A DNA stretch of 64,000 bases from an uncultured Aeromonadales bacterium (GTDB lineage Bacteria > Pseudomonadota > Gammaproteobacteria > Enterobacterales > Succinivibrionaceae), in assembly GCA_902782145.1 (NCBI GenBank), contig CACZLZ010000001.1, forward strand, positions 104,237-168,236, given 5' to 3'. Position numbers and translations under genes: made by a program. A model generated the notes under the pieces. That model searched no databases, had not been told where the DNA came from, and saw nothing but the letters and a program-made list of their open reading frames with translations. Below are positions 9,136-41,797 of the stretch, in pieces (position 1 is the first letter of the stretch; each line of letters starts with the position of its first letter).

Positions 9136-12177
<3,042 letters not shown>

Positions 12178-18173: not shown

Positions 18174-21000
18174 GCTCCTCCATCCAGGAGGCGCTCTGCT
18201 TCTTGGTCATCTCCAGAATGTCATCCAATTCATACAGCTCCGGCTCCACATCCGCAATCCTCTTCCCGCCCCTGAGGCTCACCTCCACCAGATTGCAGAT
18301 CTTCTGCACCTTGGGCATGCCGCAGTAGGCGGCCCCGCCCGCCATCTTGTGCACCAGGCGGATCATCTCCCCGGGCTGGATGGAGTCCTTCCGGCTGATG
18401 GCATCCTGCACCGGCTGGATGGAGGACAGGAACATCTCCAGCATCTCCAATGCCAGATCCTTTTTGCCCGCAGCCTGGCGCAAGGCCAGTTCCCGATCCC
18501 GGATCTTGGGCTCCCGCTCCTTCAGGAAGTCGTCATGGAGCTCCTCCTGATCCCCGGTGGCAGTGGAGGACAGATCCCCGATCCGATCCAGAAGCTTCTC
18601 CAATGCGTCCTCGTCAATGGGCTTGGACATATACTCGTTCATGCCCAGTTTCATAAGCCGCTCCCGCTCCCCGGGAATGGCCAGGGCGGTCACCGCCACC
18701 ACCGGGGTGGCGGCATTGCTGCCGTGCTCGTCGTTGCGGATATGGTTCAGGGCGCTGATCCCGTCCATCACCGGCATCTGAATATCCATGAAGATCACGT
18801 CATAAGTCTTGGTGCGGCACAACTCCACCGCCTGGGATCCGCTGGCAGCCCCGTCCACAGCGGTGACCCGCTCCCCCAGGAGGGCGGTGATGAGCTTCAG
18901 GTTCGCCTGGTTGTCATCCACGGCCAGGACGCACATGTTCCGGCGCACCGGAGTCTTCACTGCCGGCTCATCCGCCGGGGGCTCCAGGCTGTCAGCGTTG
19001 TTCAGCCGGCGGCTGAAGCAGTCCAGCAGCCGCTCGGGGATCACCGGCTTGATCAGGCAGTCAAAGGCGCCCATCCGGCGGTAACGGCCGTTGATCTCCA
19101 CATCATGGGAGTTGGAGAGCACCACAAAGGGCGCATCATGAGGAAGTTTGTCCAGGATATCCGCCACCTCGTGCCGATCGGCCTTGTCACTGACCGCCAC
19201 CACGGAAATGAAGAAGTCCTGCACCGGCAGGGTGCGCACCGCATCCGCCGAGGAGAGGGCAAAGACCCGCATGTTCCAGTCGGTCATCATCTGCCTGACC
19301 GACTCCCGGGCCCACTCATTGTCATCAATGAGCAGGACATTCAGGTTCTGCATATAAGGGATGATGGGGTTCTGCTCCCCGGGCATCTGGGCCAGTTCCA
19401 GGGGGATGGTGGTGACAAAGATGGAGCCCTTCCCCACCTGGGACCGCACCGTGATCCCTCCGCCCATGAGGTTCACCAGCTTCTGGGTGATCACCAGACC
19501 CAGGCCCGTGCCCCCGAAGGTGCGGGAGATGGAGCTGTTGGCCTGTGTGAAGGGCTGGAACAGGCGCTGCTGCTGGGAGGGGCTGATGCCGATCCCGGTG
19601 TCCCGGACCGTGAACTCCACATGGATCTTCCTGGCGTCCCCGTCCTCCTGGCCCTCGGACTTGCTGTGGGTCAGACGCACGGTGACATTCACGGAGCCCG
19701 ACTCGGAGAACTTCACCGCATTGGACACCAGGTTCAGGATGATCTGCTGGAGCCGCAGGGGATCACCCACCAGAAGGTAGGGGATCCGCTGGGCGATGTA
19801 GAGGGAGAGATCCACCCCCTTCTCGTGGGCCGAGGGGGCCATGAGCATCATGGTCTCCTCCACCGTGTCCCGGATACTGAAGGGGATCTTCTCAAAGGTG
19901 AGCTTCCCGGCCTCCAGTTTGGAGAAGTCCAGGATGTTGTTGATGATCCCCAGCAGGTTCTTGGCCGAACGCTCAATAGTGACCAGGTACTCATACTGGG
20001 AGGTGGTGAGCTTGCTTTTCAGCAGCTGCCGGGTGAAGCCGATGACGCCGTTAAGGGGGGTGCGCAGTTCATGGGACATGTTGGCCAAGAAGTCGGTCTT
20101 GACCTTGGCAGCCTCCTGGGCCTGGCGCTTGGCCAGCTCCAGCTCCACATTCTGGATCTCCAGCTGATCTGCCGTCTGCCGGAGATCCGAGGTGGCCTGC
20201 TCAATGTTCTGCTGCATCTCGTTGTGGTAGGCCGCAATGGATCGGGCCATGCCGTTGATCCCCGAGCGCAGGCGCTCCAGCTCACCGTACATGCCGCCGG
20301 TGATCCGGGTGTCCAGCTGACCGTCCTTGATGGAGTAGATGGCCTTGATCATGCGGTTGATGGGCTCCACCACCTCCTTGATGAGGTTGGTGGCGAAAAT
20401 CAGCGCCAGCACCAGGCCTGAGAGCACCACAAAGAGGGACAGGGTGAGATCCTTGTAGAGGGCAAGCCTGGCGGGATTGGTGCTGATGCGCACGCACACA
20501 AAGCCCCGGACAATCAGCTCGCTGGGTAGCCGGGAGTTGATCTGGATCCCCTTGATGTATCCCTGGGAGTCCCGGGTGATCTCCGAGAAGATAGGAGTCT
20601 TCATGATGATGCTGTCCTTGGAGAAGCGGACGCTGGTGTAGAGGGAGAGCATCTCCGAGCCATTCTCGTCAAACTTCTCAGCAAAGGCCGCATAGTTGGA
20701 GGCGGCGTAGACTCCGCCGGACTCATCCAGCACCACAATGCTCTCAATCAGCTCCGAGTGCTTCCGGTGCACATAGTCGATGATCTTCCTGATGGTCAGC
20801 TGATCATCGTCGCTGAAGGGGCTCTCCAGGGCCAGTGTCATGGGCTCAATGATGCTCAGGCCGTCCTGGACAATGCTGTTCTCTATCTGGTTGTAGCGGT
20901 TGAACATGTAGTTGCCCGCAAAGAAGAGGCCGATGAAGACCACCGGAAGAAGGGTGTAGACAATCACCCGGGAACGCAGTCCGTATCTTTTGAAGGCCAT
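18157..21000 (-). CDS. barA: Hybrid sensor histidine kinase BarA
   Basis: 947 aa tripartite hybrid kinase like E. coli BarA, which drives UvrY and the Csr small RNAs. Domain order: TM1 (about 13-30), periplasmic sensor, TM2 (about 180-200), HAMP, coiled coil, HisKA with SHELRTPLNG (His near 310), HATPase (DTGIGISPSQQQRLFQPF, GGTGLGLVI), a degenerate receiver-like region, a receiver with VIFMDIQMPVMDG (Asp near 737), and a C-terminal HPt (LVHKMAGGAAYCG, His near 884). Location near relA matches E. coli. An extended -10 (TGGTATCAT) lies about 40 bp upstream. Confidence 0.92.
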   Translation of the reverse strand: MAFKRYGLRSRVIVYTLLPVVFIGLFFAGNYMFNRYNQIENSIVQDGLSIIEPMTLALESPFSDDDQLTIRKIIDYVHRKHSELIESIVVLDESGGVYAASNYAAFAEKFDENGSEMLSLYTSVRFSKDSIIMKTPIFSEITRDSQGYIKGIQINSRLPSELIVRGFVCVRISTNPARLALYKDLTLSLFVVLSGLVLALIFATNLIKEVVEPINRMIKAIYSIKDGQLDTRITGGMYGELERLRSGINGMARSIAAYHNEMQQNIEQATSDLRQTADQLEIQNVELELAKRQAQEAAKVKTDFLANMSHELRTPLNGVIGFTRQLLKSKLTTSQYEYLVTIERSAKNLLGIINNILDFSKLEAGKLTFEKIPFSIRDTVEETMMLMAPSAHEKGVDLSLYIAQRIPYLLVGDPLRLQQIILNLVSNAVKFSESGSVNVTVRLTHSKSEGQEDGDARKIHVEFTVRDTGIGISPSQQQRLFQPFTQANSSISRTFGGTGLGLVITQKLVNLMGGGITVRSQVGKGSIFVTTIPLELAQMPGEQNPIIPYMQNLNVLLIDDNEWARESVRQMMTDWNMRVFALSSADAVRTLPVQDFFISVVAVSDKADRHEVADILDKLPHDAPFVVLSNSHDVEINGRYRRMGAFDCLIKPVIPERLLDCFSRRLNNADSLEPPADEPAVKTPVRRNMCVLAVDDNQANLKLITALLGERVTAVDGAASGSQAVELCRTKTYDVIFMDIQMPVMDGISALNHIRNDEHGSNAATPVVAVTALAIPGERERLMKLGMNEYMSKPIDEDALEKLLDRIGDLSSTATGDQEELHDDFLKEREPKIRDRELALRQAAGKKDLALEMLEMFLSSIQPVQDAISRKDSIQPGEMIRLVHKMAGGAAYCGMPKVQKICNLVEVSLRGGKRIADVEPELYELDDILEMTKKQSASWMEELRSQG

Positions 21001-21284: not shown

Positions 21285-23015
21285 ATGTTCAGAAGTGTTT
21301 TCCGCTACTGGCGCTACGCCCTGCCGGCGGCGCTGCTGATGGTGCTGGAGGTCCTGGCGGATCTGTGGCAGCCCCGGCTCATGGCCGAAATTGTGGATCA
21401 GGGGATCCTGGGACTGGAGGGCAGCGGCGGCGCCTCTGCGGACATCATCCGATCCACCGGCCTGGTGATGCTGGCGGTCACCTTCGGGGGCTGCCTGTGC
21501 GGCGTCCTCAGCGGCGCCTGTGCCAGCGTCTTCAGCCAGTGCGCCGCCCACGGGATCCGCCGGGAGTGCTTCAGCACCGTCATGAAGTTCTCCCCCCGGG
21601 AGATCCAGGAGTTCACCGCCGGCAGCCTGCTGACCCGCTGCACCCAGGACGCCGCCCAGATCCAGATGACCCTGGCCCAGGCGGTGCGGGGCGGGGTGCG
21701 CTGCCTGATGTTCCTGGGGGCCGGCAGTGCCGCCCTCCTGGCCATGTCCCCGGACTTTGCCCTGGTCATGGCCATTGCGGTGCCCCTGGTGATCCTGGAA
21801 ACCGTCTTTGTGCTCCGCCGGGCCTCCCCCCTCTTCACCCGGACCCAGGAAAGCCTGGACCGGCTCAACACCGTGATCCGGGAGAGCGTTGAGGGGATCC
21901 GGATCATCAAGGCCTGCGCCGGAGAGGAGCGGGAGGAACGGAAGTTCACCGGCGCCAGCCGGGATCTCTCGGATCTCCAGTTCCGCACCGCCGTGCTGCT
22001 GTGCACCCTGCATCCGGTGATGAACATCGTGCTGAACCTGGCCGCCGCCGGGATCATCCAGATCGGCGCCTTCCAGGTGGAGGCCGGGGCCCTGGCCCCG
22101 GGGGCGGTCATCGCCGGCGTCACCTACGCCTCCCAGATCCTCATGTCCCTGCTGATGGCGGCCATGCTCTTCCAGTCGGCAAGCCGGGGCGCCGCATCCG
22201 CCGCCAGGATCAGCCAGGTGCTCCGGTGCCAGGCCACCTCCCGGGGCGGGAACGTCACCTCCGGAAGCCGGAAAGGGGAGGTGGAGTTCCGGAATGTCAC
22301 CTTCAGTTATCCCGGGCGCAGCGCCCCGGCCCTGGAAAAGGCCTCCTTCACCATCGGCCGGGGGCAGTTCCTGGCCATCCTGGGCAGCACCGGCAGCGGC
22401 AAGTCCACCATTGCCCGGCTGCTCCTGGGGTTCCATGAGCCGGATGAGGGGCAGATCCTGGTGGAGGGCACGGACACCCGGGAGTTTGACCGCACGGCCC
22501 TGAGGACCTGCATTGCCGCGGTGCTCCAGGACTGCCGGATCTTCCGGGGCACCGTGGCCGCCAACATCGCCGCCGGCGGCAATGAGGAGGATCTGGAGGG
22601 GATAAGGAGAGCCGCAGAGCTGGCCCAGGCCGACAGTTTTATCAGCGCCCTGCCCGAAGGCTACCGGACTTTCCTCCCGGGAGGCGGGGCCGGGCTTTCC
22701 GGGGGACAGCGCCAGCGCATTGCCATCGCCCGGGCGTTGTACCGGCACCAGGATATCCTGCTCCTGGACGACTCCTTCAGCGCCCTGGACAGCGAGACCG
22801 AAGCCAGGGTCCGGGAGGGGATCCGGAAGTCCTGCCGGGACATGACCCGGATCATCATCACCCAGCGGGCCGCCACAGTCCGGGATGCAGATCTGATCCT
22901 GGTGCTGGATCGGGGCCGGATCTGCGCCGCCGGCACCCACAGGGAGCTGGCCGCCTCATCCCCGGAATACCGGGCCATCCTCAGTTCCCAGGAGGAGGAA
23001 AGCCATGAAAGCTGA
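21285..23015 (+). CDS. ABC exporter half-transporter, degenerate-site subunit
   Basis: 576 aa ABC transporter of the multidrug/lipid exporter type: N-terminal six-helix membrane domain (about 1-310), then an ATPase domain with Walker A GSTGSGKSTIA, signature LSGGQRQRIAIARAL and Walker B ILLLDDSFSALD. The catalytic glutamate after Walker B is replaced by Asp (DD), as in the non-catalytic site of heterodimeric exporters such as BmrCD or TM287/288. No clear ribosome-binding site precedes the ATG; a GGGAAA/TTTCCC inverted repeat lies immediately upstream. It overlaps the next gene by 11 bp. Substrate unknown. Confidence 0.88.
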   Translation: MFRSVFRYWRYALPAALLMVLEVLADLWQPRLMAEIVDQGILGLEGSGGASADIIRSTGLVMLAVTFGGCLCGVLSGACASVFSQCAAHGIRRECFSTVMKFSPREIQEFTAGSLLTRCTQDAAQIQMTLAQAVRGGVRCLMFLGAGSAALLAMSPDFALVMAIAVPLVILETVFVLRRASPLFTRTQESLDRLNTVIRESVEGIRIIKACAGEEREERKFTGASRDLSDLQFRTAVLLCTLHPVMNIVLNLAAAGIIQIGAFQVEAGALAPGAVIAGVTYASQILMSLLMAAMLFQSASRGAASAARISQVLRCQATSRGGNVTSGSRKGEVEFRNVTFSYPGRSAPALEKASFTIGRGQFLAILGSTGSGKSTIARLLLGFHEPDEGQILVEGTDTREFDRTALRTCIAAVLQDCRIFRGTVAANIAAGGNEEDLEGIRRAAELAQADSFISALPEGYRTFLPGGGAGLSGGQRQRIAIARALYRHQDILLLDDSFSALDSETEARVREGIRKSCRDMTRIIITQRAATVRDADLILVLDRGRICAAGTHRELAASSPEYRAILSSQEEESHES

Positions 23016-25023
23016 GCAGACACCACCTCCCGGAGGGGTGCTCCGGGGGCGGCGGATCTCCCCCATGGAGCAGGCGGCGGAAAAGCCTGCCAGCATGCGG
23101 GGCAGCGCCGCAAGGTTTCTGGAATATTTCCGCCGGGAGGCCTTCCGGACGGCACTCCTCTTCCTCCTGGCATCCCTGGCCACCGCCGCGGCGGTGACCG
23201 CCCCGGTGATGCAGGGCCAGGCGGTGGACGCCCTGGTAGACGGCTGCTTCGGGAAGGTGCCGGAGCTGCTGGAGTTCATGTGCCTGCTGTACCTGCTCTC
23301 CTCCGGCGCCACCGCCCTCCAGGGGGTGATCACCGCCTCCCTGGGGCGGCGGATCATCCTCCGGCTCCGGGAGGAGATCTTCCGCCGTACCGTGAGCCTC
23401 CCGGTGCGATCAGCCGAGTCCATGTCCCGGGGGGATCTGATCAGCCGCATGACCAATGACGCCGACAACGTGTCCGGGGCCGTGTCCTCCGCCCTCTCCT
23501 CCCTGTTCGGCAGCCTCTTGACCCTGGTTGGCAGCGCCGCTGTCATGTTCTGGATGTGCCCGCCCCTGGCATTGCTCACCTGCTCCTCAGTGCTGCTGTC
23601 CGGGGTGATCACCCGGCTCATCACCCGTACCGCCCGCAAGTATTTTCTCCTGCGCCAGAAACTGCTGGGGGAGATCAGCGGGATCACCGAAGACGCCATC
23701 AGCGGCTTTGACACAGTTGCCGCCTGCTGCCTGCAGGAGCGGCGCCGGGAGGAGTTCATCAGCAAGTCCCGGGAGCTGGCCGAGGCGGGGATCCGGGCCG
23801 AGGTGGCCGCCAGCAGCATGGGCCCCCTGATGAACGGCGTTGCCAACCTCACCTTCCTGGTGGTGGCCGTGGGCGGCGCCTGGTGCGCCCTTGAAGGCTG
23901 GATCACCGTGGGGGTGATCTCCGCCTTCATCATCTACTCCAAGCAGTTCACCCGGCCGGTGAGCGAGATCTCCATGCTGTGGAGCCAGATCCAGACCGCC
24001 CTGGCAGGTGCCGAACGGATCTTCGCCGTGCTGGACATGGAGGGAGAGGAAACCGCCGGCGGGGAAGAGAAGAAGGAAGTTCCTGCCGGTGGCAGCAAAG
24101 GAGACAGTTCAGGAGACCGTGGATCAGACGGAGCCGGCGCCCGCCCGGACGGCCAGCGGGCAGTCCTGGACGATCCGGAAGATCTGAGACAGTCTCCCGG
24201 GACCGGATACGGAAAGGACGCACTTCCGGAAACCAGCGGCACCAGTGCCGGATCGGTGTGCCCGCCCCGATCCCTGAGATCTGGTGCCCCGGCAGTGACC
24301 TTCTCCCATGTCACCTTCTCCTATGAGCCCGGACGCCCGGTGATCCGGGACTTCTCCCTGGAGATCCCCCCGGGGGGACGCATCGCCCTGGTGGGAGCCA
24401 CGGGATCCGGCAAGTCCACGGTCATCAACCTGCTGCTCCGGTTCTGCGAGCCGGACTCCGGCCGGATCCTCCTGGACGGACAGGATATCCGGGACTTCCC
24501 GGTCCGGGATCTCCGGCGCCGCATGGGGGTGGTTCTCCAGGAAACCCACCTCTTCACTGACACGGTCCGGCGCAACCTGTCCTACGCCCGGGAGGAGGCT
24601 GCGGACAGTGAGATCCTGGAGGCGGCCCGGGCGGCGGGGCTTCTGGACTTCATCACCTCCCTGCCCCAGGGGCTGGACACGGTGCTGGAAAGCGCCGGTG
24701 AGCGCCTGTCCCAGGGCCAGCGGCAGCTTTTTGCCATCTGCCGGGCACTGCTGGCCCGGCCGGACATGCTGATCATGGACGAAGCCACCTCCTGCGTGGA
24801 CACCATGACGGAAAAGCGTGTCCAGGAGGCCACCAGCGCTCTGCTGGGCATGGGCACCAGCCTCGTGGTGGCCCACCGGCTGTCAACAGTGCGCAGTGCC
24901 GACCGGATTGTGGTGATGGATCAGGGGATCATTGCCGAGACGGGAACCCATGAGGAGCTCATGGCCCTGCAGGGCAAATACAGCACCCTGTGCCGCCTGC
25001 AGATGCTGGGAAAGGAGATCTGA
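23005..25023 (+). CDS. ABC exporter half-transporter, catalytic subunit
   Basis: 672 aa partner of the preceding gene. A six-helix membrane domain (about 40-340) and ATPase domain have Walker A GATGSGKSTVI, variant signature LSQGQRQLFAI and Walker B LIMDEATSCVD with the catalytic Glu intact. Together the two genes give one consensus and one degenerate ATP site. Between the domains sits an unusual low-complexity insert of about 85 residues (about 350-435, Gly/Ser/Glu-rich). It ends convergently with the polymerase operon. Confidence 0.88.
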   Translation: MKAEQTPPPGGVLRGRRISPMEQAAEKPASMRGSAARFLEYFRREAFRTALLFLLASLATAAAVTAPVMQGQAVDALVDGCFGKVPELLEFMCLLYLLSSGATALQGVITASLGRRIILRLREEIFRRTVSLPVRSAESMSRGDLISRMTNDADNVSGAVSSALSSLFGSLLTLVGSAAVMFWMCPPLALLTCSSVLLSGVITRLITRTARKYFLLRQKLLGEISGITEDAISGFDTVAACCLQERRREEFISKSRELAEAGIRAEVAASSMGPLMNGVANLTFLVVAVGGAWCALEGWITVGVISAFIIYSKQFTRPVSEISMLWSQIQTALAGAERIFAVLDMEGEETAGGEEKKEVPAGGSKGDSSGDRGSDGAGARPDGQRAVLDDPEDLRQSPGTGYGKDALPETSGTSAGSVCPPRSLRSGAPAVTFSHVTFSYEPGRPVIRDFSLEIPPGGRIALVGATGSGKSTVINLLLRFCEPDSGRILLDGQDIRDFPVRDLRRRMGVVLQETHLFTDTVRRNLSYAREEAADSEILEAARAAGLLDFITSLPQGLDTVLESAGERLSQGQRQLFAICRALLARPDMLIMDEATSCVDTMTEKRVQEATSALLGMGTSLVVAHRLSTVRSADRIVVMDQGIIAETGTHEELMALQGKYSTLCRLQMLGKEI

Positions 25024-25092: not shown

Positions 25093-26343
25093 TCAGGACA
25101 GGAAGTAGTCATACTCCAGGATCCGCTCCTCCATGGCCGGCGCCGGGGTGCCCATGAGCAGATCCATGCCGAAGACCCCGGCAAAATAGGAGAACAGGCT
25201 CCCCCGGTACAGCTCCAGCATCAGACGGCTGAAGCAGTTCCTGAGATCCTGGGCATGATCAAAGCGGCACATGAACTCGTCATGAACCGTGACCACGTCA
25301 AACTCGGAATCCGGCAGTGCCCGGACCGCCTCCCCCAGGGCCTGGTGGTATTTCCGGGGCAGGCAGTCGCCGTCCTCGGTGAACTCCAGGATCCTGAGGG
25401 ACGCCATGCCCGTGGCCCGGTAAGAGCTGAAGATGTCCGCGGCCCGGCTGCTGCTGAAGGACACCCGGTCGGAGCCGTCCGGCACCGGCACCAGGGTGCT
25501 GAAACGCCGCCGGTAGGTCTGGTTGCGCCCGCAGCGGCGCACCAGCTCCCGCAGGATGTAGGCGTCCAGGGAATGGGTGAGGTTGGCCCCGATCCCCCGG
25601 GTGCCTTCACTGCCCCGGGGCAGACAGCCGGGAAGGTTGGGGCACACCTTCACGGAATTCCGCCGGCCGGTCTCATCCTCCCAGTACACGGAAGCGGACA
25701 CGCTGCGGTCAAAGTTCTCCACCACCTGCACCACCTCCAGATGATCCGGTAAGGTCCAGCGGTAGCTCCTGGCCGTGGGATCCCAGGCCTCCAGGCATGC
25801 GGCCCGGAAGCAGTCCGGACAGGGGAGCATGTCCCGGTAAACCCGGAAGAACAGATCCGCCCGGCCCGGTCCCAGAAGTTTCCGGGCCTCGGCCACGCCG
25901 CCGTAGTTGTAGGGCACCACGGCCTTTTTCATCTCATCCCTGGTCAGTCCCCCGGAAGCCTCGGCCAATGCGCTGTACACGTCTGAAGGGGTGTTGTCCA
26001 GAAGCCCGATGCAGGCCAGGGCCGTCTGATCCTTCATGCCCAGGGACAGCAGCAGGATCCCGCTCTGGCGGGTGTCCATGTGCACCATATACCCGGAGGA
26101 TCCCCGATCCTGGGAGTCGGCCACGGCTCTGGCGATGCGCATCACCGACAGCAGATCCTCGCCGTCATTGAGCCCCGTCTGGCGGCACCACTCCCGTGCC
26201 CGGGCAGGATCCAGCAACTGCCGGTAGTAGTCATCCTCCAGCAGGGCCAGCCCGTTGTCCAGCTGCTCCTGGATGGTCCGGCCACCCAGGCAGATCTTTC
26301 CCAGTTCCCGGGTGAGCGTCGCAGAGCTGTCAAGGATCCTCAC
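25093..26343 (-). CDS. T7/N4-family RNA polymerase, catalytic C-terminal subunit
   Basis: 416 aa, GTG start with a GAGGAG ribosome-binding site 8 nt upstream. It matches the palm/fingers half of single-subunit RNA polymerases. Asp90 in HMDTRQSGI corresponds to T7 Asp537. Lys139 and Tyr147 in KKAVVPYNYGG keep the exact spacing of T7 Lys631/Tyr639. IGANLTHSLDAYILR matches the T7 segment with HS-x-D-x3-LR. His354-Asp355 in VTVHDEF corresponds to T7 His811/Asp812. Even the C-terminus (ERILEYDYFLS) resembles T7's RDILESDFAFA. The N-terminal half is a separate upstream gene (26415-27326), the layout of phage N4 RNAPII. It should transcribe DNA as a heterodimer; promoter and role are unknown. Confidence 0.85.
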   Translation of the reverse strand: MRILDSSATLTRELGKICLGGRTIQEQLDNGLALLEDDYYRQLLDPARAREWCRQTGLNDGEDLLSVMRIARAVADSQDRGSSGYMVHMDTRQSGILLLSLGMKDQTALACIGLLDNTPSDVYSALAEASGGLTRDEMKKAVVPYNYGGVAEARKLLGPGRADLFFRVYRDMLPCPDCFRAACLEAWDPTARSYRWTLPDHLEVVQVVENFDRSVSASVYWEDETGRRNSVKVCPNLPGCLPRGSEGTRGIGANLTHSLDAYILRELVRRCGRNQTYRRRFSTLVPVPDGSDRVSFSSSRAADIFSSYRATGMASLRILEFTEDGDCLPRKYHQALGEAVRALPDSEFDVVTVHDEFMCRFDHAQDLRNCFSRLMLELYRGSLFSYFAGVFGMDLLMGTPAPAMEERILEYDYFLS

Positions 26344-26414
26344 AGTCAGAACTCCTCAGCATAAGCCGTCAGAAGTCTCCGGTCGCAGCGGCCGGAGCGC
26401 CTCCGGCAGCACCC

Positions 26415-27326
26415 TCATCCCAGAACCGGCAGGGACGCATGGATCCGGGACACCGAGCCCCCGGAGCCTGAGGGCCGGACAAACCGGATCTCCGCCGGAT
26501 CTGCCGACTCAATGAGATTCCGGATCTGGCGGCAGGAGGTATAGTTGGCAGCACCCTCCCGGACATAGACCCTGCCCCGCCAGTCCTGCTTCAGGGAGGC
26601 CCGGAAGTAATCCTGGCCTGCCAGTTCGGCAAACATGGGGATGATCCTGGCAGTGCGTTCCCGGTGACGCCGGATCTTGTCCGGATCGGCTCCGGTGGCC
26701 AGGGGCAGCGTGCCCACGCTGTCCCACACATAGGAGGAGATCCTGAGCCGCGGCCGGGACAGGAGCTTCATGATCTCAGGGCAGCGGTCGCCCCGGGCGT
26801 TGGCCACCCGGGAAAGAAGGGATCCGGTGAGTTCGCACTTGTCATAGACGGAGCTCCTGGCAGAGCGGAAGCGCCGGCTGGCCTCCACGGGGCACTGAAC
26901 CACGCAGCGGCACTGCATGTCATTGGACGCATCCCGTCTGAGGCGCAGGACACCCAGTTTGGTCAGGGTCTCAAAGATGAAGCCCTTAAGCCGGGCGTTG
27001 CAGGTGAACATGGCAAAGACATCCCGGACCAGATCAGCCAGTTCGCTGAAATCCAGATCCGGCAGCAGGGAATAGAGCCTCTGGGCGGTGTCGCAGGTGC
27101 GCTCGCACACCACGGCGGCCTGCTCGGTGATGAGTCCGGAGCGGTGGCTGACAAAACCGCACATGGAGTCAGTGCTGGCCGGAGCGGACCAGCCGGCGGT
27201 CCACCGGTTCTCCAGGGAGCGGATAAGGGCTGAGATAAAGCCATTCTGCTCGATGAAATCCGCAAACCATCTGACCCGGGGACTGCCTCCGGTCTCCATG
27301 GGAAACTCATTGCCGGCATAGTTCAT
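26415..27326 (-). CDS. T7/N4-family RNA polymerase, N-terminal subunit
   Basis: 303 aa. The ATG at 27326 is chosen because of AAGGAG 6 nt upstream; an earlier in-frame ATG at 27395 lacks one. The C-terminal part carries DWRGRVY (248-254), the DxxGR motif of T7 RNA polymerase (DWRGRVY around T7 Asp421), preceded by a basic helix IRRHRERTARIIPMF like T7's. The remaining N-terminal region is shorter than in T7 and not otherwise recognised. It ends with its own stop 71 nt before the catalytic subunit. The split lies between DxxGR and motif A, as in N4 RNAPII (two subunits of similar size, from recall). A 194-bp gap upstream contains two TTGACA hexamers but no clear -10. Confidence 0.8.
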   Translation of the reverse strand: MNYAGNEFPMETGGSPRVRWFADFIEQNGFISALIRSLENRWTAGWSAPASTDSMCGFVSHRSGLITEQAAVVCERTCDTAQRLYSLLPDLDFSELADLVRDVFAMFTCNARLKGFIFETLTKLGVLRLRRDASNDMQCRCVVQCPVEASRRFRSARSSVYDKCELTGSLLSRVANARGDRCPEIMKLLSRPRLRISSYVWDSVGTLPLATGADPDKIRRHRERTARIIPMFAELAGQDYFRASLKQDWRGRVYVREGAANYTSCRQIRNLIESADPAEIRFVRPSGSGGSVSRIHASLPVLG

Positions 27327-27520
27327 GACTTTCTCCTTCCTGGGCTGCGGCTGCAGCCTCCACCTGTCAAAGGGCGCACCGTCATTGGTTGTCATCCGGA
27401 CAGCATGGATGGGAAACAGTCACCTGTTCAAAATCTGTCCGTTGTCAAAAAAATCCACTGAAAGCGACAGTACGCACAGTTTTGCAGAGCCGGAGCACCG
27501 CCAGGGAGCGGAGCTGAACT

Positions 27521-28051
27521 TCACCATTCATCCAACTGATCCCTGCCCGGGCTGAGACGGTTCAGGATCTCCCGGCGCATCTGGCTGGTGAGTTCTATCC
27601 CGTTACCTTCGTGGAGGGTTCTGATGTCCCGCAGCGCCCGATCCAGAAGCGCCTCATCAGACTCAAGGGGATGGCTCTTTCTTAACTCCCTCACAAATTC
27701 GGTGAGGTGCTCAACAGTGCTCTCATCAGCGGCATTGATGAGCCCGTTGGCCATGGCCCGGGAGGCGTGGACACAGAAGGAGGCCAGGTTGGACACCGTG
27801 GCGGTGAGATCATCCACCACCGAGCCGTCGCCGCTCCGGCCGGAGCTGCTGCGGAAGGACGGCAGGGAAGATCCGGAGGATCCATTCCGGGGTCCCCGCA
27901 GGGTCTCATAGCGCTCCTCCGACTCGATCTCCGCCCGGATGCTGCCGATCTTCATGCTCTCGGAGCCGTTCCTGGCGGCAGAGCACAGATCCTTGAAGGC
28001 TGATCCCAGGTTAGACAGAAAATCAGCCAGATCATCACCTGCGTCTCTCAT
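27521..28051 (-). CDS. Small viperin-operon protein B1
   Basis: 176 aa, no family recognised, no signal peptide. The N-terminus carries the module NLGSAFKDLCSAARNGSE followed by SMKIGSI, present in all four small proteins of this operon. Then come a Ser/Arg-rich linker, a second helical part with SFCVHASRAMANGL, and the end MRREILNRLSPGRDQ. It is a diverged paralogue of B2. The ribosome-binding region (AGGAGAAGGAGAAA) is nearly identical to that of B2, so the duplication includes upstream DNA. Cytoplasmic; role unknown, possibly a regulator or sensor for the viperin/polymerase. Confidence 0.75.
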   Translation of the reverse strand: MRDAGDDLADFLSNLGSAFKDLCSAARNGSESMKIGSIRAEIESEERYETLRGPRNGSSGSSLPSFRSSSGRSGDGSVVDDLTATVSNLASFCVHASRAMANGLINAADESTVEHLTEFVRELRKSHPLESDEALLDRALRDIRTLHEGNGIELTSQMRREILNRLSPGRDQLDEW

Positions 28052-28155
28052 GGTGTTTCTCCTTCTCCTGTTGCTGTCTGTTGGCAGATCCTGCGGCCTT
28101 GCGGATCCCGTCCGGGAGAACCCGGCACCCGGCTCCCGGATGGGGTCACTGTCCC

Positions 28156-28455
28156 CTAGAGGTAGTCCTCGTAATCCGGCCCCAGGATCTCCCGGAGACG
28201 GCTCTCGCTCAGAGTGGATTTCCGGACGGTGTCCTGCAGCTCCTCATGGGCACGGATGAGGGTGCCCTTGGAGGAGATCTTCAGGGCCTCCGAATAGTTC
28301 CTGGCGGCCGAGGACAGATCCGACAGCGTCTGACCGGCATTCCGGCCAAGTTCCACCGGCAGGAGATCCCTGCCGGAGCGGCGGGATGCTGGACTGTCGG
28401 CGCTCCGCTCAGCCACCGGGTAAAATTCGCTGTCATCGCGGTCACTGCTGCTCAT
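28156..28455 (-). CDS. Small viperin-operon protein A1
   Basis: 99 aa, unrecognised, hydrophilic and helical. The central segment NAGQTLSDLSSAARNYSE and ALKIS is the same module as in the B proteins. The C-terminal half (TVRKSTLSE, RLREILGPDYEDYL) is almost identical to A2, also at DNA level. The ATG overlaps the B2 stop by 4 nt (ATGA), so translation is coupled. A radical-SAM modified precursor was considered but is not favoured because the viperin-type enzyme acts on nucleotides. Confidence 0.75.
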   Translation of the reverse strand: MSSSDRDDSEFYPVAERSADSPASRRSGRDLLPVELGRNAGQTLSDLSSAARNYSEALKISSKGTLIRAHEELQDTVRKSTLSESRLREILGPDYEDYL

Positions 28456-29060
28456 TTGTTCTTCCTCCTGTTAAATTTCAGAGAACGCAACTCAAAAGGA
28501 TCTGGTAAAGAAAATCCAGGCTCTTCAGTCCCTCCTTTCCCGGGGCAAACATTGCGTGTCCGGTTCAGGACTTCCTGTCGCATCTGTCTGGTGAGCACGG
28601 ATCCCTTACCGTATTTCTCTTCAAAGCCCTTCAGAACACTCTCCAGGATCTCCTCATCAGAACTGCTGGAGCCATTGGATTTGATCATTTTCACGGTTTC
28701 AGCAAAATAACGGATGTTAGCATTGGCTGCGGCATTGGAGACTCCGGAGCCCAGAGATCTGGCGGTATGAACGCAGAAGGATGCCAGATTGGCCACCGTG
28801 GCAAAGAGATTTTCCGCCGGCGAGTCGTCGTTACTGCTGCAAGGGGTGCTCCTCCTGCCTGAGGAAAAGGAGGGGCTGACAGATCTTCTCTCCCTGGGAT
28901 GGCCGTGAAGACTTTCATAGCGCTCCTCAGTCACGATTTCATGCCGGATGCTGCCGATCTTCATGCTCTCCGAGCTATTTCTGGCAGAGGAGCACAGATC
29001 CCGGAAGGCGGAGCCCAGGTTAGACAGAACATCTTCCAGTAAATTTCCTGATCCTCTCAT
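28452..29060 (-). CDS. Small viperin-operon protein B2
   Basis: 202 aa; the ATG at 29060 has GGAGAAGGAGAAA upstream, like B1. It begins MRGSGNLLEDVLSN, then the shared module NLGSAFRDLCSSARNSSE and SMKIGSIRHEI. A Ser-rich linker, SFCVHTARSLGSGVSNAAA, and MRQEVLNR correspond to the same parts of B1. It has a longer basic C-terminal tail (ending RRKNK) than B1. No known family recognised. Confidence 0.75.
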   Translation of the reverse strand: MRGSGNLLEDVLSNLGSAFRDLCSSARNSSESMKIGSIRHEIVTEERYESLHGHPRERRSVSPSFSSGRRSTPCSSNDDSPAENLFATVANLASFCVHTARSLGSGVSNAAANANIRYFAETVKMIKSNGSSSSDEEILESVLKGFEEKYGKGSVLTRQMRQEVLNRTRNVCPGKGGTEEPGFSLPDPFELRSLKFNRRKNK

Positions 29061-29184
29061 GATATTTCTCCTTCTCCTGAAGTGACTGATCCATGCTCCC
29101 CGATTTTGATCCTGATCCTGATCTTGATCCCCAGGCCACCCGGGGAAAACCGGCGCTCCGGATCTCCCAGACGCGGCCGATCCC

Positions 29185-29484
29185 CTAGAGGTAGTCCTCA
29201 TAGTCCGGCCCCAGGATCTCCCGGAGACGGCGCTCGCTCAGGGTGGATTTCCGGACGGTGTCCTGCAGTGCCTCATGGGCACGGATAAGGGTGCCCTTGG
29301 AGGAGATCTTCAGGGCCTCCGAATAGTTCCGGGCGGCCGAGGACAGATCCGAGAGTGCATGCCCTGCGTTCCGGCCGAACTCCACCGGCATGAGATCCCT
29401 GCCGGAACGCCTGACAGCGGAACTGCTGCCTCTCCGCTCGGCCACCGGAAAAAAATCCCTGTCGTTGAAGTTGCTGCTGCTCAT
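29185..29484 (-). CDS. Small viperin-operon protein A2
   Basis: 99 aa, same length as A1. The ATG at 29484 (MSSSNFND) is preceded by GAGGAGAAAGGA; an earlier in-frame start is not supported. It carries the module NAGHALSDLSSAARNYSE and the C-terminus GPDYEDYL shared with A1. It is first after the viperin gene (84-bp gap). A 124-bp gap to B2 contains short GATCCT direct repeats. Confidence 0.75.
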   Translation of the reverse strand: MSSSNFNDRDFFPVAERRGSSSAVRRSGRDLMPVEFGRNAGHALSDLSSAARNYSEALKISSKGTLIRAHEALQDTVRKSTLSERRLREILGPDYEDYL

Positions 29485-29568
29485 GTCCTTTCTCCTCTGA
29501 AAATTCGCTGTCATTCTTCCGGTGCCACAGACACCTGAACCGCCTGTCGCACCAGGAGCCGTCCCGCC

Positions 29569-30534
29569 TCAGACGGCGACCGCCGCCGTGCTCATGTCAC
29601 TGTAGCGGGACAGGTACAGTTCCCGGTCGAAGCCCAGCCGCTCAAGGCCCCGTCTCACATCTTCCCTGAGGCAGTCAGCGGCAGGAACATAACTGGTGTT
29701 CACCGTGTCATCCACCAGGCAGCCATTGGCATCAATCATGAGGTAGCCGCCCCTGAGGGTGGTCTCGATCACCGCATGGCATCCGCCCTCAAGCTGCCGC
29801 ATAACCGTGGAGTCACTGCGGATCTCTGCCCCGCCCACATTGCGCCTGACGAAGGCGGCATACTCCTCCAGGGAGATCCCCAGATGGCAGTTGCTGAAGT
29901 CGCCGTTGTCAAAGCGCATCATCTTCAGGATCTTCCAGCGGGACACCGGAAGGCTGCTGATCTCACCGCCCAGGATCTCATCCTTGTTCAGGGAGGACAC
30001 CACCGTGTTGACCTTGATCCGGCATAAGGGGTTGACATCCCGGATCAGGGACATGATCCGGCGGATCCGCTCCCGGGTGAGGAGTCCCCCGGAGGCAGTG
30101 CAGCGGCCCAGGCGCCTCATGGTGTCCGGATCAAAGCTGTCCAGGGAAAGGCCCACAGTGTCCAGCAGAGGGACGTTTTCCCGGATCCACTGATCAGTCA
30201 TCAGATAGCCGTTGGAGATCACCGACACCCGGTGCCCCAGATCCCGGCAGTAGCACACCAGATCATGGAAGAACCGCACCATCAGTGGCTCGCCTCCGGC
30301 CAGGTTGAAACTGCATCCGGGAAAGGCCCGGCTGCAGTTGTCCACAATCCGCTTCCAGCTGTCCAGCCTCAAGGAGCGGCGGCACTGGAACTTGGCAAAG
30401 CAGTGGGCGCAGCGGTAGTTGCAGTGCTCCAGGAGGTGCAGATTGAACTTGACTGCACCACCCAGGGAGCCGGGACGGATCCCGGATCTGACTCCGGTTC
30501 CCTCAGCTGATGACCTGGTGCTGTGCTTGTCCAT
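29569..30534 (-). CDS. Prokaryotic viperin (radical SAM ddhNTP synthase)
   Basis: 321 aa; start MDKHSTRSS with AAGGAGG 7 nt upstream. The radical SAM cluster motif is CNYRCAHC (Cys38, 42, 45), then GGEP (80-83) and ISNGY (106-110). Viperin-specific matches run to the C-terminus: LDTVGLSLDSFD (animal LDILAISCDSFD), KVNTVVSSLNKDE (KINSVINRFNVEE), PVSRWKILK (PVRWKVFQ, with the nucleotide-contacting Arg/Lys), YLMIDANG, and LGFDRELYLSR (SGFDEKMFLKR). No SPASM cluster. Viperins convert NTPs to 3'-deoxy-3',4'-didehydro-NTPs, chain terminators of viral polymerases. It leads the operon ending with the T7-type polymerase; which nucleotide is used cannot be told. Confidence 0.85.
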   Translation of the reverse strand: MDKHSTRSSAEGTGVRSGIRPGSLGGAVKFNLHLLEHCNYRCAHCFAKFQCRRSLRLDSWKRIVDNCSRAFPGCSFNLAGGEPLMVRFFHDLVCYCRDLGHRVSVISNGYLMTDQWIRENVPLLDTVGLSLDSFDPDTMRRLGRCTASGGLLTRERIRRIMSLIRDVNPLCRIKVNTVVSSLNKDEILGGEISSLPVSRWKILKMMRFDNGDFSNCHLGISLEEYAAFVRRNVGGAEIRSDSTVMRQLEGGCHAVIETTLRGGYLMIDANGCLVDDTVNTSYVPAADCLREDVRRGLERLGFDRELYLSRYSDMSTAAVAV

Positions 30535-30825: not shown

Positions 30826-30854
30826 AAAAAAAAAAGCCCCCGCACAGCGGGAGC
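30826..30854 (-). terminator. Porin terminator
   Basis: Stem GCTCCCGC / GCGGGGGC (one G-T pair, 3-nt loop) followed on the minus strand by ten T, 50 bp beyond the porin stop. It should also insulate the viperin operon from porin transcription. Confidence 0.85.
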
Positions 30855-30903
30855 CCCAAGTCGGATATGTGCGGTCCGGAGATCCGGACCTTGTGTGTAT
30901 GAA

Positions 30904-31965
30904 TCAGAAATTGTAGATAAAGCCCAGGGTGAGCAGATTGGCGGTCTTCTTATTAAAGGCAGCCTTGAAGCGGTGCTCACCTTCAACGTAGAGCACGGAG
31001 TTGGTAGTCACGTTGAAGTCAATGCCGATGTTGTAGAAGGATGACAGGCGCTTGCTCCGGCTGTTCACATTGGGAGCCTGCTTGGTGAGATCCTTGTCAT
31101 GGTTCCAAATGTAGGCAAAGGAGCCGTAGAAGGAGAATGCCTGGCCGGGAGTAGTGTAGGAAAGCACAGTGTTCACACCGCTGCCCTTGTAGGTGTTCTG
31201 CAACTTGCCGTAGTTGTACACCACAGCACCGTAAACGCCGGGAGCTCCCCTGGTTCCGTAGTAAACGGAGCCGGCGACCTCTTCCTTGTCAGCACCCTGG
31301 TAGAAGTTCCGGACCATGTTCCATCTGCTGTCACGGCCCTCATAGTGGTTGTAGCCCAGCCAGAAGCCCAGGGGATCATCGCCAAGATCAAAGGCATAGC
31401 CCACGCTGGTGCCCACGCCGTAGCTCAGATCATCATTGGTGTCACGGAAGCGGTAGGAAGCCAGGAAAGAGAGTCCCCCGTGCTTGAGTTCATAGATTGC
31501 CTGGCCGTCCTGGCGTCCACCGTAGTCATTTCCGGTGAAGCCCCAGTAGGTCACGCCTCTCTTACCCCAGTTCCAGAAGATATCGGTGACCTTGGTGACG
31601 CGGTAGAAGGCATCCTCCAAACGGCCAAAGGTCAGTTTGCCGAAATCCTTGAAGTCAAAACCGGCATAGCCGTAACGGATCTTGATGGTGTTGTTGGCAT
31701 TGTTGGTCTCCTGGGCCTGGAGATCGTACATCAGGTAGCCGAAGACTGAGAGGTTGTCATTGACCTTGGTGGTGCCGCTGGCGCCAAGACGGGCGGTGCC
31801 GGCCAGACGGTGGTTGGCATCAGCGTCATTGTTCTGCAGATCCACCTTCATACGGCCAATGATGTTCAGGGTGGTGCCCTCATTGCTGTAAACATTGGCG
31901 GCTTCGGCACCGGAGGCGGCCACAGTCAGAACTGCGGCGGCAAGAAGTGATAATTTAGTGTTCAT
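30904..31965 (-). CDS. Outer-membrane general porin (OmpC/OmpF-like)
   Basis: 353 aa with signal peptide (MNTKLSLLAAAVLTVAASGAEA), cleaved before ANVY. The mature start NVYSNEGTTLNIIGRMKVD, the GKLTFGRLEDAFY strand near residue 110, and the C-terminal aromatic LTLGFIYNF (for BAM recognition) identify a 16-strand trimeric porin. Nonspecific diffusion of small solutes. Porins are also common phage receptors, of interest between two defence loci. Long AT-rich upstream region with palindromes suggests regulated expression. Confidence 0.92.
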   Translation of the reverse strand: MNTKLSLLAAAVLTVAASGAEAANVYSNEGTTLNIIGRMKVDLQNNDADANHRLAGTARLGASGTTKVNDNLSVFGYLMYDLQAQETNNANNTIKIRYGYAGFDFKDFGKLTFGRLEDAFYRVTKVTDIFWNWGKRGVTYWGFTGNDYGGRQDGQAIYELKHGGLSFLASYRFRDTNDDLSYGVGTSVGYAFDLGDDPLGFWLGYNHYEGRDSRWNMVRNFYQGADKEEVAGSVYYGTRGAPGVYGAVVYNYGKLQNTYKGSGVNTVLSYTTPGQAFSFYGSFAYIWNHDKDLTKQAPNVNSRSKRLSSFYNIGIDFNVTTNSVLYVEGEHRFKAAFNKKTANLLTLGFIYNF

Positions 31966-32227: not shown

Positions 32228-34747
32228 TTATTTCATGCTGGCAAGCACTTTTGCTATCTGATATTTGTACTTGCCCTTCTTCTTCACGGCCTGAATAAAC
32301 TCCTTCACCTCTGCGTCAAACTGCTCATTGTTCTTCCTCAGCTTGGCGATGTACTCACACAGCGGGATCAAGGCCGGTTCATCCTGACTCTCAGTGTCCA
32401 TGCCCAGCCGCTTGAGCATCTGGTAGCAGGTGGTGATTTCAAGGTAGTCCCCGGGGATCAGACCCGCATCAGCTTTATCTTTCAGTGACTCCCTGAGGGA
32501 CGGACACCCAAAGGCTGTGGCCAGAATAAACATGGGATCCTGGGAGGAATCAAAGACATCCTTGAATTCACCCGGGGTTGCTGACACCGTCTTTTTCGCA
32601 GGTGCAACAGACGGCGCCAGTTTGGCCCGCCGTTTCAGGAGTTCTTCGAACTTGCTCTGAGTGAAGTCCTTCTCCTGCCGCCGGCAGTCCGCAGCATAAC
32701 CATCATGCTTGCCACCAGGATAAAAACCACCTTCCGCCGGTGTGTTGTTGAAGTCCTTTGCAATTTCCGCAAACTCATTGGTGCGATCTGCAGTTGTGGG
32801 GAACTTGTTGTACACCTTGTCGCTGAGAGCATTCTCATCAACCCTGGCGTTTTCCAGGTAGGCTTTAACAGCTTCTGAAGTCTTCCACCGGGCAACACCG
32901 TCGTCCTTTTCATTCTTCACGAAGGGATATTCCCTGCCCATCAGCTCTTCAAATGCGGTGATGCAGTATCCCACCAGATCTTCCTTAGGAAGATCCAGGA
33001 CACCGGGAAGAAGCAGATTTCCGTCAGTCAGATATTCGGGAATGTGAATGCTGTCCCCAGTGATCTTCATCTGAACAGCCCCGGCGCCCATAGGCTTGGC
33101 ATGACCAAGGCGATGATAAAGCCCAGGATCTGAACTGTTGCCAAAGGTCATCACCCACAGAAGTGCTCCCAGCTCCGCCGGTTTCAGATTGTGAAAGACG
33201 ACGCTTCCAGCAAAGGATGCGCCCCTGTCCACAAAGTCTATCCTGGTCTGGACCTTCACGTTGTCATTGTTGGCATTCTCCCTGGCAAGTTCAAGATCCT
33301 TTCTGACCTTATAGATCTTGCGCCCGGCTATGAGATTTCCCTTGCTGTACTTCTCCCGGAAGCCGAAGTCGCCCAGATAAGCCTCATAGAATGTGGGCTT
33401 GGGTTCACCCATCACATAAGTCTTCTGGAACACTCCGGGAACCGTGGATGAGCGGAGATCCGAAAAGCCGATCCGGCTGCCCAGAGATCCTTCGGGAGCA
33501 TTCTTGCGGACGCAGCCAAACATCAGATCTGCCAGATCATAAGCCTCTTCACCAGGGACAGATGAATTCCCGTAAAAATTCTTGTAGTTGTCATTAATCA
33601 AATCACCGACGGATCTGTCTGCCACCTTCCGTACAACCTGGCAGAAACCCAGAGCGCCTTTGCCACTACTGCTTTTAGGCATGAGGTACCATACAGGGAA
33701 TCCATACTTCCGGTTCATGCGGCTGCGGACATAATTGAAGAGGTTCTCTTCCTTGACCCCGCTGTCATCGGCCTTCACCAGGGCCATGGAATCATTGAGA
33801 TCGGACACCAGATAGTCTGGCAGCTTCTGCCAGTCGCCGGTCCTGTGCGCAGTCTCAGAATCAACATAGAAAAAGTAATCCGTGAAGTGGTTGGCCTTGG
33901 GATTAGGCTTGTTTGGAGAACCATCATTGGAAATGTTTTTGTCCATGAACAGGAACATTCCGGGAACGGCCCCTGGCTTGTCTGAGTTCAGGGAAATTTC
34001 CGTTACCTCCTTCCAGGTGGTTTTCCTTGCCGGCTCCCCTTTATCAAGTTTCTTCCGCTGCTGTGCCGAATAACCTTCCTTTTTCTCTAGGACTGCGTAA
34101 AGCAAAGGCATGGGTTCATCCTCACCCAGACCAAGCACCCCATACAGTTTCCGGTACTTCTCCTTTGCTGTCATGGTTGCAGCTTCTGCCGGCGTCACAT
34201 TGAGGATCCGGCCAAGGGATTCTGCCGAAACGGAAGCCGAGACAGGCTTGTCGTCAGGTTCGGCAACAGCAGCAAGATATTCCCAGGTGCCCGGAGCATT
34301 TACCTTAGGGCGGACAAAAACAGGTGCCAGATCAAACCGGCTCTTTTCTCCCTTCACATCACTGATGCTTAGGCGGAAGGCATGCTTCCGGTCATGGAAA
34401 AAGCTCATTCTGCAGAAGGAAACAATTTCCAGGGCATTTCTCAGCATGCCCTTGACGCTGCTTCCGGGAATTACATACCGGCCTTCATGATCCTTCTCCC
34501 AGATGAGGTGCTTCACCCCGCTCTTGTCCGCCATCTCAACCCGGTGGCCCACGCAGAGCGGAGAACTGTTGGTAAGCTCATAGTCAATGCGGCCTGAAAT
34601 GCCGTCTTCAAAGGGAATATCACTGGAAACCTGATCGGCCCAACCTGGTCTGAAAAACCACGATGAAACCGGAGCAAAATTGTAGGGAACAACTATGGGG
34701 GTTCTCTGACGCCTCACAGGAGTCTTGTTTCGCAAATTGTTTTCCAT
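32228..34747 (-). CDS. Type III-D RAMP protein, TIGR03986-like
   Basis: 839 aa, the last gene of the effector operon. RAMP features are IPGSSVKGMLRNALEIVSF (113-131 approx.) and a later glycine-rich loop HRLGHAKPMGAGAVQMKI. The size and the RGMLR-type motif fit the large TIGR03986 RAMP family found in type III-D loci. It is probably a multi-domain Cas7-like backbone part of the interference complex, with a lysine-rich C-terminal region. Base composition is noticeably less GC-rich than the neighbours. Confidence 0.65.
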   Translation of the reverse strand: MENNLRNKTPVRRQRTPIVVPYNFAPVSSWFFRPGWADQVSSDIPFEDGISGRIDYELTNSSPLCVGHRVEMADKSGVKHLIWEKDHEGRYVIPGSSVKGMLRNALEIVSFCRMSFFHDRKHAFRLSISDVKGEKSRFDLAPVFVRPKVNAPGTWEYLAAVAEPDDKPVSASVSAESLGRILNVTPAEAATMTAKEKYRKLYGVLGLGEDEPMPLLYAVLEKKEGYSAQQRKKLDKGEPARKTTWKEVTEISLNSDKPGAVPGMFLFMDKNISNDGSPNKPNPKANHFTDYFFYVDSETAHRTGDWQKLPDYLVSDLNDSMALVKADDSGVKEENLFNYVRSRMNRKYGFPVWYLMPKSSSGKGALGFCQVVRKVADRSVGDLINDNYKNFYGNSSVPGEEAYDLADLMFGCVRKNAPEGSLGSRIGFSDLRSSTVPGVFQKTYVMGEPKPTFYEAYLGDFGFREKYSKGNLIAGRKIYKVRKDLELARENANNDNVKVQTRIDFVDRGASFAGSVVFHNLKPAELGALLWVMTFGNSSDPGLYHRLGHAKPMGAGAVQMKITGDSIHIPEYLTDGNLLLPGVLDLPKEDLVGYCITAFEELMGREYPFVKNEKDDGVARWKTSEAVKAYLENARVDENALSDKVYNKFPTTADRTNEFAEIAKDFNNTPAEGGFYPGGKHDGYAADCRRQEKDFTQSKFEELLKRRAKLAPSVAPAKKTVSATPGEFKDVFDSSQDPMFILATAFGCPSLRESLKDKADAGLIPGDYLEITTCYQMLKRLGMDTESQDEPALIPLCEYIAKLRKNNEQFDAEVKEFIQAVKKKGKYKYQIAKVLASMK

Positions 34748-34752
34748 TTCTC

Positions 34753-35313
34753 CTAAGCCTCCCTGCTGAAACCGATGAACTGCTGGACATAAGGCTCGAT
34801 CCGGCCGGCATCCTCACTGCTCATGCGGTACCAGTTCCGGTAGCAGATCTTGCCCTTCACCCCGTTGCGGTGCGCCAGATCCTGCCGGACACACACCGAA
34901 AGATCCGTGCACACCATGTCCTTCCCCCCGGATCCGTCGCAGGTGTAGACATTCAGGAGAAACCGGGTGCCGGCGATCCGCCGGATCTTCAGAGTCTGGC
35001 CCAGATCTGCAAGATAAAACTCCGCCTCCTGGATCCGGCCTTTTTTCTCTTTCAGAGCACCCAGCTCCAGTTTGAGCCCGGCCTCCACACAGTCAGAGAA
35101 CATGATCCAGTGATCCACCTCAGTCCTGCCGTCAATGAATTTGGAGAGTTCAGCCAGCAGCGCATCCTCTCCATCTGGCTGACTGGAGGTGACCTCAAGC
35201 CTCCGAACCTCGTGTCCGGCCAAAGCCTCCTGCTCCCCGGCGGAAGTCTCACTCATCAGTTCGTCTGTGCCCCGGACCAGGGCATCAAGCTCTTCCTTGG
35301 ATAGTTCAGTCAT
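34753..35313 (-). CDS. Csx19-like type III-D accessory protein
   Basis: 186 aa with ATG at 35313 (AGGAGGACAGCC upstream), overlapping the previous gene's stop by 8 nt. No diagnostic motif; position between a TIGR03986-like RAMP and Csx10/Cas7 genes and size are those of Csx19 (TIGR03984). Aromatic/charged C-terminus (KICYRNWYRMSSEDAGRIEPY). Assignment rests on gene order. Confidence 0.4.
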   Translation of the reverse strand: MTELSKEELDALVRGTDELMSETSAGEQEALAGHEVRRLEVTSSQPDGEDALLAELSKFIDGRTEVDHWIMFSDCVEAGLKLELGALKEKKGRIQEAEFYLADLGQTLKIRRIAGTRFLLNVYTCDGSGGKDMVCTDLSVCVRQDLAHRNGVKGKICYRNWYRMSSEDAGRIEPYVQQFIGFSREA

Positions 35314-36838: not shown

Positions 36839-36851
36839 AATCTCATCTCTC

Positions 36852-38549: not shown

Positions 38550-38551
38550 CC

Positions 38552-39328: not shown

Positions 39329-39330
39329 TG

Positions 39331-41253: not shown

Positions 41254-41403
41254 ACACTTCCCAGGATCCGCCCCGGCGCCCGGGACCGGATCACACAGCC
41301 GCCATCCACTCCGTTAGGAGGGCTGAACAACGGATGCTATGCCTCCAGCCGCCATTCTGCAAGAAACAGCCGCAGTAACACGCCAGAAAAACAGCATCTG
41401 TCA

Positions 41404-41417: not shown

Positions 41418-41455
41418 ACACGGCACAGATCACACTCAAACCGGGCATCCCAGGT

Positions 41456-41749: not shown

Positions 41750-41797
41750 TGTGCTCCCTCCCCTGGATCATTCCTGCCCGGCCTGCTGTCTTCCGCC

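Follow-up and report, generated by a model that had tools for sequence, protein, structure and literature searches.

Why a bacterial chromosome should hold both subunits of a phage N4-type RNA polymerase, in one run of genes with a viperin, is the question raised by a locus of an uncultured Aeromonadales bacterium (Succinivibrionaceae). It lies within 64,000 nucleotides of contig CACZLZ010000001.1 (assembly GCA_902782145.1, positions 104,237 to 168,236), here called the window and numbered from its first letter; the window forms the right-hand end of this 168-kb contig, and the draft genome comprises 3.18 Mb in 93 contigs. On the minus strand, from 30534 down to 25093, follow viperin, the small proteins A1, B1, A2 and B2, and the polymerase subunits RNAP1 and RNAP2; all seven reading frames were confirmed. 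We interpret the RNAP1-RNAP2 pair as a polymerase that was taken from a phage into neighbourhoods of defence genes; a defence setting is seen in the window and in WG-1 (GL995199.1, Succinivibrionaceae), which has the only other full-length pair among 56 genomes of the family. Three genes are central to this reading:

25093..26343, minus strand: RNAP2, large subunit like N4 gp16, with motifs A, B and C kept (matches to 6dt7_B, phrog_2051 and viral locus L034)
26415..27326, minus strand: RNAP1, small subunit like N4 gp15, with a DWRGRVY motif (matches to RNAP1 of L034, a profile and folds)
29569..30534, minus strand: viperin (SAND), of the radical S-adenosylmethionine (SAM) nucleotide dehydratase family (matches to NF038283, pVip and 7n7h)

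That RNAP2 is an N4-type polymerase subunit, as the initial annotation had it, was confirmed by matches to the PHROG RNA polymerase family phrog_2051 (5e-44) and, over residues 123-416, to the solved N4 RNAP2 6dt7_B (4e-24). Among viral contigs 32 loci match, the best being L034 (IMGVR_UViG_3300031992_000079; E=2e-83, about 34-35% identity); identity is 22% to N4 and 25% to WG-1, and each of the 432 matching phage records is less than 60% identical. Of 46 columns conserved in 24 other N4-type RNAP2s, the window protein keeps 32, L034 36 and WG-1 30 (the partial RNAP2 P0002 keeps 20, with 22 gaps); since the columns are kept about as in L034 and WG-1, no decay of the window RNAP2 is indicated. 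Residues kept include D90, R135, K139, Y147, H354 and D355, among them the equivalents of D537, R627, K631, Y639 and D812 of T7 RNA polymerase; motif B has glycine in place of serine (S149G), and the other nucleotide-site residues resemble those of phage enzymes. Among 34 RNAP2s placed in a tree, that of the window joins L034 (98/91), then P0002 and WG-1 (100/99, a clade of four), apart from the N4 kin; the branches of the window and WG-1 are long, so the exact placement is uncertain. A protein search, in which the best 7996 candidates were scored, returned the RNAP2's own cluster and nine distant proteins; the cluster holds five sequences on three contigs, which, being at most 73,458 bases long compared with the 168 kb of the window's contig, probably belong to other assemblies.

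RNAP1 gave nothing reliable with Pfam or PHROGs, and pairwise BLAST with N4 RNAP1 (gp15) aligned the motif region only, not significantly. Its standing as the second subunit was established by way of the RNAP1 of L034 (27% over 289 aa, E=4e-17), with weaker support from a profile and from predicted structure. The profile, built from 17 other RNAP1s (16 from viral contigs, and WG-1), finds the window protein at 6.5e-5, calculated for 177,635 sequences, and picked up neither a background frame of the window nor any of the 500 shuffles; without L034 the value is 0.11 and without L034 and WG-1 there is no report, which marks this RNAP1 as very divergent. The structural model is of low confidence except around residues 180-280 (predicted local distance difference test, pLDDT, 53); its 19 leading fold matches all belong to T7-family polymerases, N4 RNAP1 (6dt7_A) ranking first and T7 RNA polymerase itself high, and none passes E 0.001. 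The DxRxRxY motif (D248, R250, R252, Y254) is invariant in 16 sequences. With it and motifs A, B and C of RNAP2 the catalytic motifs are intact, as had been noticed at the outset; the window polymerase may transcribe DNA as a heterodimer.

The identity of the viperin was confirmed: it scores 227.9 bits against the NCBI profile NF038283 (cut-off 180), 9e-63 against PADLOC pVip and 4e-21 against the solved viperin-like enzyme 7n7h, and carries the radical-SAM motif CxxxCxxC as CNYRCAHC (residues 38-45). Family profile score and motif are thus shared with the prokaryotic viperins (pVip/SAND, reportedly the subject of Bernheim et al. 2021), whereas the window viperin lies in one run with a phage-type polymerase; we know of no described viperin system that has its own. 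The same statement had been made beforehand, and listings of open-access literature on viperin with polymerase, on N4 RNAPII in bacterial genomes, on viperin in Succinivibrionaceae and on domesticated or decoy phage polymerases contained no such system either (PDC-M16 was outside that search). According to an excerpt of PMC9642334, which cites Bernheim et al. 2021, T7 RNA polymerase is inhibited in E. coli by enzymes of the viperin type. Phage records contain no match to the window viperin, and neither do viral contigs when queried with this single sequence, a weak test; none occurs in the 33 loci L033-L065.

The pair was likely captured from a phage, to judge from its relatives. As in phage N4 RNAPII (gp15-gp16), there are two subunits in the same gene order with the motifs split alike, and in L034, whose pair is the closest, the genes are adjacent too. 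The settings differ: L034 is part of a 76-kb viral contig with an endolysin, a phrog_1297 ATPase and a Dda-like helicase, genes common to other N4-like stretches, while the window pair sits in a bacterial chromosome. A search of the window with 1090 frames, drawn from two stretches of N4, one of a Vibrio phage, one of WG-1 and 12 viral contigs (16 in all), matched RNAP1 and RNAP2, the helicase regions between 43 and 45 kb, and gave two short hits of marginal score; capsid, portal, terminase or virion RNA polymerase (vRNAP) was not found beside the pair. The early remark that no capsid or other phage gene is present was supported to this extent: besides RNAP1 and RNAP2, a helicase domain that is also shared is all that was found of N4-like genes in the window; an N4 portal was not found in the whole genome, in a search that had no positive control. 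N4 RNAPII works with gp1 and gp2 as cofactors; by itself the enzyme transcribes denatured or single-stranded DNA without sequence specificity (from an excerpt of PMC4496689). Relatives of gp1 and gp2 did not appear when N4 frames of at least 70 aa were compared with the window, although short, fast-evolving proteins may escape such a comparison. GC content at third codon positions (GC3) is 0.79/0.85 for the pair and thus host-like (eno 0.76, pyrG 0.82), compared with 0.45/0.49 in L034 and 0.19/0.19 in WG-1. As a proof that the pair has long been resident, this host-like GC3 is weakened by the wide spread of GC3 among viral RNAP2 genes, from 0.22 to 0.83 over 32 loci (one reaches 0.83, none 0.85); a GC-rich donor is hence possible, if not the rule.

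The second full-length pair lies on a 15.5-kb contig of WG-1 (L013), where Csx1 (4e-37), a further frame, a frame resembling PDC-M16B that carries S1/CSD domains of TOTE type (1e-11), PDC-M16A pieces (2e-62 and 2e-32), a small frame, RNAP1 and RNAP2 follow each other on one strand (275-9418, plus). Past RNAP2 there are frames of no assigned kind and then an intein protein. A phage origin of this contig was considered and rejected: its terminase match falls in the intein/LAGLIDADG protein, the phage matches shown are annotated as DarB-like, its N4-like genes are confined to RNAP1, RNAP2 and helicase pieces, Csx1 matches no phage record, and its GC content (0.268) is close to that of other WG-1 contigs (0.278-0.309). 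The pair comes from the same bacterial family as that of the window and is likewise full-length and among defence-type genes (PDC-M16 and Csx1); the contig differs in having no viperin. In the window the corresponding setting consists of type III-D CRISPR effector genes at 32228-41253 on the minus strand (three Cas7-like genes, Csx19, Cas5/Csx10 and Cas10) and, on the plus strand, a PDC-M16A helicase (2e-126) with a TOTE TATA-binding-like domain and a Csb2/Cas56g-like protein. WG-1 thus strengthens the broader notion that a polymerase was recruited for defence; the fixed tie to viperin that was part of the original proposal is not supported.

This tie was examined in relatives. Two sister species (G003 and G004) have, in the same order, a Csb2-like gene, a PDC-M16A-type helicase, a further gene, the porin, viperin and A-type small proteins; in G003 a histidine kinase comes next, 78% identical to the window kinase at 18157-21000. 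Neither this site in G003 nor the G004 stretch has RNAP1, RNAP2 or the type III-D genes, and RNAP2 is absent from both whole genomes (90% and 74% complete). The ABC genes of the window (21285-25023), considered as a candidate portion of the insertion, are not at the site in G003, the G004 contig ending earlier; similar genes occur elsewhere in the sister genomes. The genome of a third relative, G002, yields A-type proteins and the kinase and contains no match to viperin or RNAP2. What is conserved at the site is the set of porin, viperin and small proteins, and both the polymerase pair and the type III-D genes are additional to it. Thirteen further viperin neighbourhoods, all over the family cut-off, were compared (10 from relatives and 3 from a phylum sample in which 4 of 398 genomes, including this one, have such a viperin). 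With no polymerase match in any of these stretches and viperin standing without it at the sister site, viperin and polymerase are not supported as the one coupled system first envisaged; the co-occurrence check suggested with that claim was run, and the pairing is absent from related genomes.

Of the 56 family genomes, 4 have RNAP2: that of the window, WG-1 and, with broken pieces only, G037 (close to McrBC genes) and G053 (beside a toxin-antitoxin-like pair). Class-wide, 3 of 369 genomes were hit including this one, G183 weakly (2.5e-9, a 1025-aa frame) and G168 with stops. The broken N4-type RNAP2 pieces of these two family members have the coordinates 9622-9840 (about; minus strand) in L080 and 9050-9301 (minus strand) in L081.

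Two further features border the run of seven genes, the porin adjoining viperin also in the two sister species:

30833..30857, minus strand: terminator-like hairpin between porin and viperin
30904..31965, minus strand: porin-like gene, named from sequence without a family test

Within the run the gaps from viperin to RNAP2 are 84, 124, -4, 104, 194 and 71 bases, the largest lying between B2 and RNAP1. A purine-rich, ribosome-binding-like stretch precedes every gene and was rated fair for RNAP1 and RNAP2; from these sites the probable starts are 27326 for RNAP1, 29484 for A1 and 29060 for B1, small corrections to the earlier coordinates. From viperin on, the minus strand has no terminator-like site until the last 115 bases of RNAP2. 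It may be supposed that viperin and the polymerase pair are made together; no sigma-70-like promoter was detected where the sequence was scanned, against an expectation of 1.9, which does not allow promoters to be positioned.

The small proteins are as follows:

29185..29484, minus strand: A1, 99 aa, tandem repeat D3, with relatives in 4 of 59 genomes
28452..29060, minus strand: B1, 202 aa, tandem repeat D4, sharing a core with A
28156..28455, minus strand: A2, 99 aa, 83% identical to A1, overlapping B1 by 4 bases
27521..28051, minus strand: B2, 176 aa, with a single cluster (99% identical) among 207 candidates of a protein search

Four small paralogous proteins had been announced; they are present and related, and are better described as two tandem copies of one A-B pair, with the A copies 83% identical. 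The four genomes with A-type proteins, this one included, all belong to the same genus. As candidates for gp1/gp2-like cofactors the small proteins suit in size, yet were rejected, by tests that are weak for proteins so short: A1 could not be aligned to N4 gp1, B2 gave only chance pieces with gp2 (E=0.02 in a single comparison), and A-type proteins also occur in sister species that have no polymerase. The predicted structure of A2 (pLDDT 55) is too weak for use.

The mechanism we prefer for the pair, tentatively and as a possibility rather than a probability, is competition with infecting N4-like phages, which are assumed to attack this species, for the middle-transcription machinery. The resident pair would jam middle transcription of the phage, RNAP1/RNAP2 sequestering its promoter cofactors (gp1 and gp2 in N4) or mispairing with its subunits, and the ddhNTPs (3′-deoxy-3′,4′-didehydronucleoside triphosphates) of viperin would strike the same step in parallel; the two would be separate weapons, brought together in a hotspot and aimed at a single kind of polymerase, and not one machine. 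The presence of both subunits in N4 order supports this, as does the defence setting found twice, with PDC-M16A, type III-D and viperin in the window and Csx1, PDC-M16B and PDC-M16A in WG-1. The kept columns of RNAP2, the host-like GC3, the further sequences in the RNAP2 cluster and the grouping with L034 speak for it as well. Fv1 in mice is a captured viral gene that restricts related viruses; the proposed logic is the same. If the pair works, a phage polymerase has been taken into neighbourhoods of bacterial defence genes, once beside an enzyme known to poison such polymerases, and phage N4 on E. coli K-12 offers a simple system for testing whether captured phage transcription genes protect a cell and how viperin products act on a polymerase of two subunits. 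Should the pair do nothing, the locus would remain a clear example of N4-type polymerase genes, some full-length and some decayed, among genomes of a single bacterial family.

Several points weigh against capture for defence by competition. The viperin-polymerase pairing repeats in no other genome examined, including the 13 viperin neighbourhoods (0/13; three of these stretches are shorter than 5 kb), and the 194-base gap ahead of RNAP1 allows separate transcription. The window RNAP2 has a long branch (2.07, compared with 1.1 for L034), its conserved N-terminal residues 12-30 are altered, and a GC-rich donor could be another source of the pair's GC3. The PDC-M16A helicase of WG-1 is interrupted by a stop, the intein protein there resembles those of phages, and the contig may itself be a mobile element, a chromosomal position being possible as well. 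Of the 56 family genomes 13 have PDC-M16A, including the two with a full-length pair; two genomes would share it by chance in about 5% of cases (78/1540 genome pairs), which is not strong. Lastly, a pure decoy would not need catalytic residues; kept catalysis argues for a more active role, be it an immune system armed with a viral polymerase or a link to PDC-M16/type III.

The leading rival, nearly as likely as the preferred mechanism, holds that the pair is a neutral or transient passenger, a piece of an N4-like phage in a high-turnover hotspot, with no tie to viperin and perhaps no function. Its absence from the same site in G003, from the G004 stretch and from 13/13 other viperin neighbourhoods fits this well, and the broken RNAP2 pieces in G037 and G053 indicate that such insertions occur and decay. 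The window genes, however, are both full-length with catalytic residues kept, host-like codon positions and fair ribosome-binding sites; moreover, the RNAP2 cluster has further sequences and the second full-length pair stands among defence-type genes.

A partnership with PDC-M16 and type III, in which the helicase would open DNA, the polymerase transcribe single strands and the RNA feed the type III system, is improbable. Both contigs with full-length pairs do hold PDC-M16A plus type III CRISPR genes or Csx1, and transcription of single-stranded DNA without specificity is what the excerpt of PMC4496689 describes for N4 RNAPII. The window PDC-M16A, however, is 17 kb away on the opposite strand, sister species hold PDC-M16A without polymerase, as do 11 of the 13 PDC-M16A genomes with respect to a full-length pair, and a repeat search of 25000-64000 revealed no CRISPR array.

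Quite improbable is an infection sensor, whereby early cofactors of an N4-like phage would activate the resident polymerase to transcribe defence genes or a trigger RNA; it would account for the kept catalysis and for the lack of an own cofactor, but the sister viperin loci manage without a polymerase. We give very little credence to an immune system armed with a viral polymerase, the WG-1 pair being a second recruitment of the same weapon; if true, it would be the first known to use a viral polymerase in this way. A ddhNTP-tolerant polymerase keeping island genes expressed during viperin activity, one of the functions suggested initially, has become remote: strand and order agree with viperin, whereas the polymerase genes stand at the far end of the run from viperin, their nucleotide-site residues are phage-like except for S149G, and gp1 and gp2, which N4 RNAPII requires according to the excerpt of PMC4496689, were not seen in the window, albeit by weak tests, so self-sufficient transcription of the island is unlikely. 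An assembly artefact joining phage DNA to the chromosome, conceivable in a draft genome of 93 contigs, is scarcely credible, as GC3 fits the flanks and not the nearest relatives, the porin and the histidine kinase that flank it to either side are ordered as in G003, and of N4-like genes only the two subunits and a helicase domain were found in the window.

Some minor observations concern the same genomes and surroundings. A piece of a viperin gene was noticed in G014 and a second in G537. At 41798-49062 of the window lie a 572-aa minus-strand frame, the PDC-M16A helicase and the Csb2/Cas56g-like protein, in the order also found in G003 and G004; a frame at 41339-43171 (plus), which had served as a synteny marker, is probably antisense, the likely gene being 43516-41798 (minus). 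No Rfam family was detected within the window; by ARAGORN, a tRNA-Ser with an unusual ACT anticodon is located at 55098-55178 (minus), possibly degraded or island-borne. Near the right end a low-GC region on the plus strand encodes a DUF285 protein of 75-bp repeats (61137-62120), followed by a protein kinase akin to the PD-T4-6/mad6 defence kinases (62371-63651).

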